In this document: piece by piece, positions 3,394-27,600 of the stretch
Layout: each line of letters begins with the position of its first letter
How positions within the stretch are numbered: position 1 is the stretch's first letter
Source of the DNA: Amia ocellicauda
Lineage: Eukaryota > Chordata > Actinopteri > Amiiformes > Amiidae
Direction of reading: 5' to 3'
NCBI RefSeq assembly: GCF_036373705.1
Contig: NC_089851.1
Location: 5,735,920-5,799,919, forward strand
DNA length: 64,000 bases
The notes under the pieces: model-generated
Databases searched by the model: none
Told to the model about the DNA's origin: nothing
What the model saw: the letters and a program-made list of their open reading frames with translations, nothing else
Position numbers and translations under genes: made by a program

Positions 3394-6300
3394 ATGGAGA
3401 TGAAAAGCAAACTGAGACGAGCCCAGTCCCTAAGAAATGTCTCAGAGGACCACAACACACAGTCTGGGCTTGGTAATAAAAAAGCATCTGTCTTGCAACT
3501 GGTCGCCAAGTAAGTGTTCAAAATGCACGTGTATTTTTTTTTTAAGAATATTTAAGTATGATCTAAAGAACAATTTAATATTATGCAACTGTAAAATAAA
3601 CTACTCGTGCAATATACGTTTGCAAAAGAGCATATTTTAAGCTTCCACCTACTTTTGGGCTTCCTCTGAGAGCACTTCAATCCCCATCTGGTAGCGGGAC
3701 TCTCACTTGTTTGGTCAGCATGGCTCAGGTGTTGAGAAACGTCCCTGAAACAGCAGTTTAAATCTGGGGTCTTTTTTTTACAGGTATCAAAGCACAGTGG
3801 ATTTAAAGAATGCCGATTCAGAAGAAGAGAAGAGAAAGGTTCAGTATTTAATGCAAGATGGTCTACATCTTAACTACTTTTTTCTCCATTGCAAAAATAG
3901 AAAACCAAGGTCAATTTGCATGTAATGAAGGAAAGAATATGAATTTGCTTCCTTGTCTGGTAGCATATAGTTCATATTTTGAAGTTCTTATCTTAATGAA
4001 AATGGAATCCTAGATTGTTGTATTTATATAATATATAACGGGTAATTATGATGACAGACGTATTATTGGTATTTGTATGAATAGTAGTATTTCTGTAGAC
4101 TGGTCCTAGTTTCTATTTAGAGCTCTAGAGATTCTCAAGTTCTTGCCCATCAACCTGAATCTCACCCCATGCTCTGCAATGTCTCTCACTGTTGTTCTCT
4201 GTAGATTATGACCAGAGATGACCCACCAGAGACTAAAATGGAGTCTCTCTTGAAGAAGTTTGAGTCAAGGCAGAAGCCAAGGAAATCGGTCAACGATGGT
4301 GGCGCTGGAGACCTCTGGAAGAGCAAATCCATGGAGAACCTTTCTTCCCAGGAGATGACGACCATCACTGCTCTGAGGGCTGTCTTTGAATCCAAGTCTG
4401 CCCTCAAAAAAGATTCGATCAACAGCCCTCGACTGAAGAAGGTGGCTGACAAATTCGCCCCGAGTCCATCCAGAAAGGACACAACGGTCACAAGAGCCTG
4501 GCACAGAGCAGAAACGACACACGTGAAGGAAGCACACAGTACTTCAGCCAAAGCAGAGGAGCCAGTTCATAAGGTCATTATTTTATCTTTCTTGTCCAAC
4601 CTTTTTGATGAGTATTCGTGAGATACTGACTCCAGTCACGGGGGTCTTTTTTAAGTCACTTTCGTATTAAAGTGGTTCCCTTTTCCTTTACTATTTTTCG
4701 TATTAGTTTATGTACCGCCTTTTAAAATATTAATATGAAATTGTCTGCAAGTACCTGGGTGCTTTGCACGCAATCTTCAATGCGTATAGCTGCGTCTTCA
4801 CCTGCCTGAGTTATTCATCACTACTGCCATCTACTGACCATTTCAGGAAACAAAGGCAGGTGTGGGTTTATAGGAGGGTAAAGCATAGTTTAATTGAACT
4901 GTAAGCACAGATGCATTGAACTGTTAGCACTGTCAAACATGATCTGTAGCAAAGTGTGCTTCAGTTTCTTATTCAAAATAAATCCCTGCTAATTAAAACA
5001 CATCATACGTACCATATTGTATTGTATATAGACAACCTCCTCACTTTCAATCACACTGCTTTAAATGAAGAAATAGTTATAAAAGTACATTTTTATTGTC
5101 TATATCAAACATTCAAGTATTTATTGCTTTTTGAGAACCGTCACCAGTGTGTTTCTGTCCTGAGAGCATCAGTGTGTGAATGGATGCGTTGTGTGCTGTG
5201 TGTGATAACTGGTCGGTTTTCGTTTCTTTTAACATCCTTTTAACAGGGGACTCCCAGGACGTCAGAGAGAGTCCAGAGGAGAGAGACAATCGGCAGCTGG
5301 ACTGATTCTGTGCACAGCACACCCGCTCAAGGCAGTGAGTACCGCTTTCGCAACGCAAAGAATGTGTAATGACAATATTCGCTGGTGTGAGTTGTGTTTA
5401 TAGTTAATAGATAGCTTGATTCTCTTGAGTAAACCTACATATCTGTATCAATTGAGAAAATGCATTATGTTATTAGTTCTATGAGCACTGGTCTCTGAGG
5501 TGGGGTTGGGGGTGGTTAAGCAGGTCAAAGGTTATAAATAGTACACAAAAGATGGTGAGCAGCAGGATATTTTTGAGTTGAGCAGTGAATGTTGTCTGCT
5601 GAGAGTTCAGACAGAGCCCCCTAATGCCGTCTCTGTCTTTGTATTAGGACATAATTGATTGCAGAACCATGCTCCCGTCTGATGCTACATTAACAGTGCA
5701 TAAAAGATGATTGATTCATTGTTTGATGGTTCATAGTGACTTTAATTTGAGGTTATTTACACAAACTGAAAACATCTGCCGTTAGAATGTCTAAGTCCAG
5801 CGTTCAGTCTGAGCAGAAGTGATTGAGCGCTAGGCTGACAGATGTACAGAGCTGCTACATACATAGTAATGCGCATAAACTGCACGGCTGCGAGTTAGAC
5901 AGAGCTAATCGAGCCCATTTGTCCACTGCATTGTGAAGATCAAAGGTGTGTCAACACGATACCTCATCTTAAACCCACATGAGGAAAAAAGCACCATGAC
6001 AGTTGGTGATTGGCATCTTAAACACCTTACATCTGAGCAGACTGGCATCCAGCAGCATTCTTCACTTAACAACTGTTTCCTCACGCTATACAGGGTATGG
6101 GGCAACAAACTGGGGTTTTATAAACCTGCGATGCAAGCAAATCTTCAATTATGATCAAAAGTTCATTCCCCATAATTACCCCAACGGAACGCTTCCTGTG
6201 AGGTAATCCAGGGCTGATTGTGCTCCCTGCATAAATCCTGGCAGCAGAAACGTCTATTAAGCCAAGAGCAGCCCTAGCTCTCCTTTCTGATTGAGAAACA

Positions 6301-27600: not shown

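Follow-up and report, generated by a model that had tools for sequence, protein, structure and literature searches.

A complete Xin exon nested within a putative EPLIN-class LIM gene at the xirp1 locus of Amia ocellicauda

The window analysed here, a stretch of 64,000 nucleotides from Amia ocellicauda (contig NC_089851.1, referred to below as C2), carries two coding units on its plus strand, one inside the other. Rebuilding the gene model gave eight exons with GT/AG borders which join into a single open frame of 1464 amino acids, and a huge exon encoding Xin repeats lies between the sixth and seventh of them (Table 1). An in-frame stop at 3370 precedes the start of E1, with no in-frame ATG in between. 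E6, which was called from its splice sites and phase, meets the LIM1 exon exactly in frame when the Xin exon is skipped. Phase agreement by itself would be expected by chance in one case out of three. However, when non-coding pieces matching E1 to E6 in length were joined at random 20,000 times, every join contained a stop, and the codon score of E1–E6 reached 72.1, whereas the best of these joins scored 7.8.

The LIM1 acceptor is mediocre (top 8%) and the codon-model score of the exon is −6.1, under background. The frame of the last exon stays open for about 1143 codons; ahead of its tandem array the codon score is 145.3 for the coding frame, as compared with −21.1 and 41.0 for the other two, which are interrupted by 37 and 70 stops. 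The short stretch 3′ of the array scores −2.7, and the remaining frames lower still. The 36-bp array itself remains in frame within the LIM protein, and its copy number may well differ among individuals. By eye, the 12-residue units that it encodes resemble the core FE..P of Xin repeats. We rejected this reading, the Pfam Xin family being absent among the matches to E 1, and a match of the array to MgtE_N (E 5.8e-25) was taken as a repeat artefact.

Table 1. Features of the Xin and LIM coding units, in positions of the window.
Feature	Position	Strand	Remarks
E1	3394..3509	+	Start codon; phase 2 out; donor in top 0.7%
E2	3784..3838	+	Phase 0 out; weak donor, top 36% of GT sites
E3	4205..4573	+	Phase 0 out; highest codon score among the small exons
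E4	5247..5334	+	Phase 1 out
Candidate promoter and noncoding first exon of Xin mRNA	8010..8232	+	Weak lead, chance unassessed
E5	12428..12579	+	Phase 1 in, phase 0 out; counterpart of the SLKERLAMYQAAV exon of own-genome XIRP2
E6	13290..13346	+	Phase 0 in and out; final exon ahead of the Xin exon
Xin exon	14241..22110	+	Acceptor 14240/14241; ATG 14242; coding 14242-21774; AATAAA at 22105
Alternative acceptor	14338	+	E6 to Xin in frame; first 32 Xin residues dropped
LIM1 exon	23656..23780	+	Phase 0 in, phase 2 out; LIM zinc finger 1
LIM2 exon	24168..27600	+	Zinc finger 2, EPLIN-type motif, long C-terminal domain
36-bp tandem array	26689..27238	+	15.3 copies, 88% match; 12-residue repeats in the C-terminal domain of the LIM protein

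The large exon encodes 2510 amino acids, with its stop at 21772-21774, and matches the Pfam Xin repeat (PF08043) in 17 stretches with an E value of 8.5e-144. By motif count it holds 27 Xin units (26 by motif plus one variant); about 26–28 repeats of 16 residues are given for most Xin proteins in the accessible part of an earlier survey (PMC2478706), and the window protein has the many repeats by which Xin-repeat proteins are recognized. Among the solved structures, only chance-level matches to the Xin exon were obtained (best E 0.96), and a single scan of viral contigs recovered no relative of it. Between E6 and the Xin exon, the intron contains a perfect (TA)42 repeat at 13809-13892. The strongest donor-like site within the exon (GGAG/gtaaga at 20161, phase 1) may be used for the intra-exon splicing that XIRP1 is known to undergo.

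How the Xin exon would enter an mRNA is less straightforward than its skipping. Its ATG lies one base 3′ of the acceptor at 14241, and splicing from E6 to this acceptor shifts the frame and meets a stop 118 codons later. E2, E3, E4, E5 and E6 are all out of the Xin frame at 14241, only E1 being in phase. The alternative acceptor at 14338 scores 3.05 against 2.31 for 14241, but it sits in proline-coding DNA, where acceptor-like sites score high (a similar site in the own-genome XIRP2 reaches 6.9). With a stop and AATAAA of its own, the Xin exon does not have to be spliced onward. The original prediction had joined E6 to the LIM exon in phase 0 around a Xin exon ending in its own stop and poly(A) signal, and these parts were borne out by the rebuilt gene model; its further proposal, two products that share at most an N terminus according to whether Xin is skipped or included, agrees with the frames for the skipping but not for inclusion from E6 through 14241. 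Most simply, the arrangement would represent a nested gene that has a first exon of its own, a reading that we favour over an in-frame cassette, and the Xin and LIM proteins probably share nothing and come from separate mRNAs. A search for muscle promoter motifs (MEF2, CArG, E-box, MCAT and TATA) over positions 1-14400 returned scattered matches and no clear cluster. The candidate first exon at 8.0–8.2 kb, with a one-mismatch MEF2/CArG site at 8031, a CAGCTG at 8090 and a donor at 8232, is therefore only a lead.

The exons flanking Xin were originally predicted to form an EPLIN-like LIM gene, and our analysis agrees. The joined exons match the Pfam LIM domain (E 1.1e-6), fit the LIM pattern at all eight zinc-ligand positions and find their nearest solved relatives in the LIM domains of LIMD2 (110.6 bits) and EPLIN (93.4 bits). 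Directly 3′ of the LIM domain lies an EPLIN-type motif that aligns with the XIRP2, LIMD2-like and LIMA1-like copies of the same genome, and with EPLIN over the solved chain. The EPLIN class has been delimited by a LIM domain with a conserved 22-residue EPLIN motif directly after it (PMC3305314), and the window gene has both. The human proteins assigned to this class, in the portion of that work available, are three: Lima1, Xirp2 and Limd2 (PMC3305314). Judged from its sequence, the window LIM gene would be a fourth member.

A LIM search of the same genome gave 11 matches at seven places. The three weaker ones, on C21, C9 and C5 (E 6.9e-5 to 0.0027), were provisionally taken to be other LIM genes, which leaves four EPLIN-class places: the window on C2, XIRP2 on C22, a LIMD2-like locus on C3 and a LIMA1-like locus on C7. 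LIM intron phases of 0 before and 2 inside the domain recur at all four, as judged by eye for the LIMA1-like and LIMD2-like loci. The window gene shares with LIMA1/EPLIN the LIM domain, the EPLIN-type motif, a KLRxxWPPP block and these intron phases, whereas C7, where the LIMA1-like locus lies, has no Xin match. The closest LIM domain is that of LIMD2, both by tree and by identity (48/71 with human LIMD2, 51/82 with the own copy), but the own LIMD2-like protein is short, ending soon after the motif, and C3 likewise lacks a Xin match. Beyond the LIM domain, none of 1000 shuffles aligned as well with an approximate LIMA1 sequence, and 63 of 1000 did so when the first 300 residues after the domain were compared with the own LIMA1. 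For E1–E6, similarity was not significant either to residues 1-384 of the approximate LIMA1 sequence (75/1000 shuffles as good) or to an approximate N terminus of XIRP2 (167/1000). Among the four LIM domains, that of the window has the longest branch, and it could therefore be under relaxed constraint.

We searched the whole genome (988 Mb in 385 contigs) for Xin repeats. All 39 matches above the family cut-off, counts that are lower bounds, fell either in the window or at one locus on C22; as controls, four of 14 genomes gave matches at E up to 1 and none gave a match over the cut-off. Splicing of the Xin exon on C22 into the LIM exon is possible in a second frame, and the long form then ends in LSNGVFNRRQTNFP (also written ENSSPRTGDVRSVSEEGLSNGVFNRRQTNFP) followed by the stop. 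In the corresponding frame, the mouse Xirp2 exon ends in LSNGVPHSRQAEFS, also written LSKDSLSNGVPHSRQAEFS, likewise before a stop (PMC10259482). The C22 locus is XIRP2, because its LIM exon can be read in a second frame as in mouse Xirp2 and has the same LIM intron phases. The two-frame overlap of this exon appears to be conserved between this genome and mammals. In the window, the other two frames of LIM1 are closed at codon 3 and codon 11, and the second-frame reading of XIRP2 is absent. The C22 exon with two open frames, one encoding the LIM domain and the other the end of the long form, spans C22:11475369-11475502.

The window and the own-genome XIRP2 have the same overall plan of short exons, one huge Xin exon and then LIM exons, such that skipping Xin gives a LIM protein. 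A two-isoform design with a short LIM isoform is known from mouse Xirp2 (mXin-beta) (PMC10259482) and from zebrafish xirp2a/b (PMC3280289), as far as the available text of these reports goes. In both loci of the present genome a phase-0 intron precedes the LIM domain and a phase-2 intron interrupts it at the same codon, and LIM1 and LIM2 match the LIM exons of XIRP2 with equal phases. Upstream, E5 aligns with an XIRP2 exon (1/1000 shuffles as good), and the two have in common an SxKERxAxY motif, a predicted entry phase of 1 and an exit phase of 0. E1–E6 as a whole align with three joined upstream exons of XIRP2 (4/1000); tblastn of E1–E6 against the C22 stretch recovered none of the upstream XIRP2 exons. 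The first 300 residues after the LIM domain show weak similarity to XIRP2 (3/1000 shuffles as good); the rest of the C-terminal domain could not be aligned with it (165 and 408 of 1000), and the window LIM protein is without the VEEQIKRNRYY end that XIRP2 keeps. The two loci differ in that the Xin exon of XIRP2 can splice to the second LIM frame and, among the five acceptor candidates scored, has one at 11464423 that fits the exons 5′ of it in phase 0, whereas in the window the frame of the Xin exon does not match that of E6.

The window Xin gene is xirp1, because the only other Xin locus found in this genome is XIRP2, with its dual-frame LIM exon. The suggestion that the Xin exon resembles XIRP1 is thereby upheld, and the outcome that would have spoken against it, the exon falling with XIRP2, did not occur: an unmistakable XIRP2 lies separately on C22. 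The start of the window protein, MADTTKQ, recalls the MADTQTQV of human XIRP1, the coding region of which is described as lying wholly in exon 2 (PMC13267782); here too the entire Xin protein with its own MADT start lies in one exon. Its end, GHPKNGKK, is identical at four of eight positions to GHPNTEKH of zebrafish Xirp1, as read from a published oligonucleotide (PMC3280289). Of eight zebrafish oligonucleotides compared from the accessible part of that paper, the xirp1 forward primer (6/7 residues) and the xirp1 end (4/8, at the very end) fit best, but an xirp2a primer within a Xin repeat fits equally well as the forward primer, at 6/7 (PMC3280289). In the C-terminal region the window shares 65 columns with an approximate human XIRP1 sequence and 44 with the own XIRP2; with an approximate XIRP2 sequence instead, the figures are 89 for XIRP1 and 38 for XIRP2. 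The repeat region is neutral, at 108:113 for XIRP1:XIRP2 with the own XIRP2 and 113:108 in a second comparison, again with the approximate XIRP1 sequence. By score, the long alignment favours the approximate XIRP2 sequence (1148 bits over 1562 columns) over that of XIRP1 (590 bits over 791 columns). This is expected if human XIRP1 has lost repeats and evolved fast, as reported in the part of the 2008 study available (PMC2478706).

With human and zebrafish XIRP1 (mXin-alpha), the human sequence being partly approximate, the window gene shares a one-exon Xin protein, the MADT start, a proline-rich beginning and a C-terminal block. It differs in the LIM exons that surround it, zebrafish xirp1 being described as one large exon in the available text of a report in which LIM forms are given only for xirp2a/b (PMC3280289). 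Its 27 Xin units also contrast with the 15 stated for placental mammals (PMC2478706).

The genomic neighbourhood connects the four EPLIN-class loci. Sodium-channel loci, identified by PF06512, number four in this genome, one each on C2, C22, C3 and C7, such that every EPLIN-class locus shares a contig with one of them (4/4). The distances between LIM and channel loci are 0.34 Mb on C2, 0.18 Mb on C22, 5.2 Mb on C3 and 1.66 Mb on C7, and a rough after-the-fact estimate of the chance of such pairing is 2e-10. C2 and C22 show the same order, SCN-CSRNP-Xin/LIM, and C7 carries a third CSRNP gene. A quartet produced by two genome duplications next to sodium channels is expected to show such linkage. 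In human, 3p22 carries SCN5A, CSRNP1 and XIRP1, 2q24 the SCN1A group along with CSRNP3 and XIRP2, 12q13 SCN8A and LIMA1, and 17q23 SCN4A and LIMD2. Teleosts have at least two xirp2 genes, according to the accessible part of the 2008 survey (PMC2478706). The single xirp2 and four channel loci found here point to a lineage that did not undergo the teleost duplication, barring a loss of copies.

Trees of the LIM domain and of the linked channels point in the same direction. With six LIM sequences, the split of xirp1+LIMD2 from XIRP2+LIMA1 was recovered in 97% of bootstraps, and the xirp1+XIRP2 alternative had a p-AU of 0.027 and a p-SH of 0.06. With the four own copies only, the xirp1+LIMD2 split reached 86%, with a p-AU of 0.053 that is not significant, and three columns favoured it as compared with two for xirp1+XIRP2. 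Two of three matched exons of the linked channels gave the same split at 96% (10 columns against 1 and 2; p-AU of the rival trees 0.034 and 0.056). Combining LIM and channels raised it to 100%, with rivals at p-AU 0.006 and 0.018. These trees come from short alignments without an outgroup, xirp1 forms a long branch in them, and late sorting of duplicates could have affected them.

With a root on the central branch, both halves would contain Xin, which would then be older than the first duplication and have been lost from LIMA1 and LIMD2. The Xin exon may thus predate the first vertebrate genome duplication (1R). The fuller scenario, in which the exon was born in the LIM-proximal intron of a single EPLIN gene before 1R and passed to every daughter gene, LIMA1 and LIMD2 then lost Xin, and mammalian XIRP1 lost its host gene, has in our view about even odds. 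The 2008 phylogeny placed the origin of Xin between 1R and 2R and left its source open, in the part of the text accessible (PMC2478706); an origin before 1R, if true, would make Xin older than this published date and would supply a birthplace for its exon. The locus also suggests that mammalian XIRP1, with its single coding exon, is what remains of an ancestral gene that was once larger.

We propose, with a probability of roughly 0.8, that the xirp1 locus of Amia ocellicauda is close to an ancestral form, namely an EPLIN-class gene which holds the whole Xin coding exon in the phase-0 intron before its LIM domain and gives two mRNAs. The Xin exon would occupy the intron just 5′ of the LIM domain, the same place as in XIRP2. 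One predicted mRNA would skip it and encode the 1464-residue LIM protein, while the other, which encodes the 2510-residue Xin protein, would run from a separate promoter or noncoding first exon to 14241 and terminate at a poly(A) site of its own. The LIM exons would have been lost from the zebrafish and mammalian lineages, or have gone unreported there, leaving XIRP1 as an orphan exon.

Three other explanations deserve consideration. The most serious would have the Xin exon behave as in XIRP2, included after E1–E6 or skipped, so that both proteins carry an EPLIN-type N terminus. The candidate Xin acceptor of the own XIRP2 is indeed in phase with its upstream exons, and in the window a fusion is permitted by 14338, which E6 joins in frame, as E1 joins 14241. 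However, 14241 is out of frame with E2–E6, a protein made through 14338 would lack the MADT start and the proline-rich stretch, the score of that site is matched by proline-coding sites in XIRP2, and an exon with its own stop and AATAAA has no need of an exit. We regard such a cassette as unlikely.

Somewhat less probable still is that the host LIM gene is a decaying relic, no longer expressed, with only xirp1 at work. The long branch of its LIM domain, the weak E2 donor, the mediocre LIM1 acceptor and negative LIM1 codon score, and a C-terminal domain mostly unalignable to XIRP2 would all fit such decay. Against it, every zinc-ligand position is kept, all exon borders are GT/AG, the last exon is open over its great length with a codon score ahead of the array that is highest in the coding frame, and the array itself has stayed in frame. 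That xirp1 was inserted by chance into an intron of an unrelated LIM gene, in this lineage only, would agree with a Xin protein that has its own start and end and uses no LIM-gene exon. Such an overlap appears very improbable, given that XIRP2 of the same genome has its Xin exon in the same place before LIM with the same phases, and that a sodium-channel locus, one of four, is found on the contig of every one of the four EPLIN-class loci. We thus retain the nested arrangement with two separate mRNAs as the preferred reading.

Xin proteins bind and bundle actin and localize to muscle junctions, as stated in the available sections of the 2008 survey (PMC2478706), and the window Xin protein could, by analogy, do the same. 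In mouse, short XIRP2 with its LIM domain moves to damaged actin in stereocilia, for which the LIM domain and C-terminal part are needed, according to the accessible text (PMC10259482). It is tempting to infer that the LIM protein of xirp1 acts at damaged actin or at junctions and binds or repairs strained actin like short XIRP2, although the poor similarity of its C-terminal domain weakens the analogy. What appears to be new is that xirp1 also has the two-isoform design of XIRP2, in an uncoupled form. We found no LIM form of XIRP1 in the mostly open-access literature searched; automatic annotations may already show such a form. Two protein families hitherto considered separately would become linked, XIRP1 being a fourth vertebrate EPLIN-class gene that is reduced to one coding exon in mammals. 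The origin of Xin would gain a concrete genomic setting, and its dating could be tested in the corresponding loci of lamprey, hagfish and shark. A LIM protein encoded by xirp1 is predicted in early-branching fishes, where it could overlap functionally with the short XIRP2 of hearing research.

The remainder of the window contains other genes and mobile elements. Two SLC22-family transporter genes with PDB matches, at about 30277-34586 (+) and 55860-61270 (−), face each other with their tails and have another gene between them; we presume both to be SLC22A13-like. A multi-exon gene at about 39000-51000 (+) looks HEAT-like by eye and gave no Pfam match in the three frames tested. A Tc1/mariner-type transposase frame at 42785-43777 (+) has Sleeping Beauty HTH, Tc3 HTH and DDE_3 domains, and a second one at 54122-55159 (−), of which one piece was tested, is split. 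Positions 50789-51049 form a compound minisatellite with periods of 21, 61 and 82 bp.
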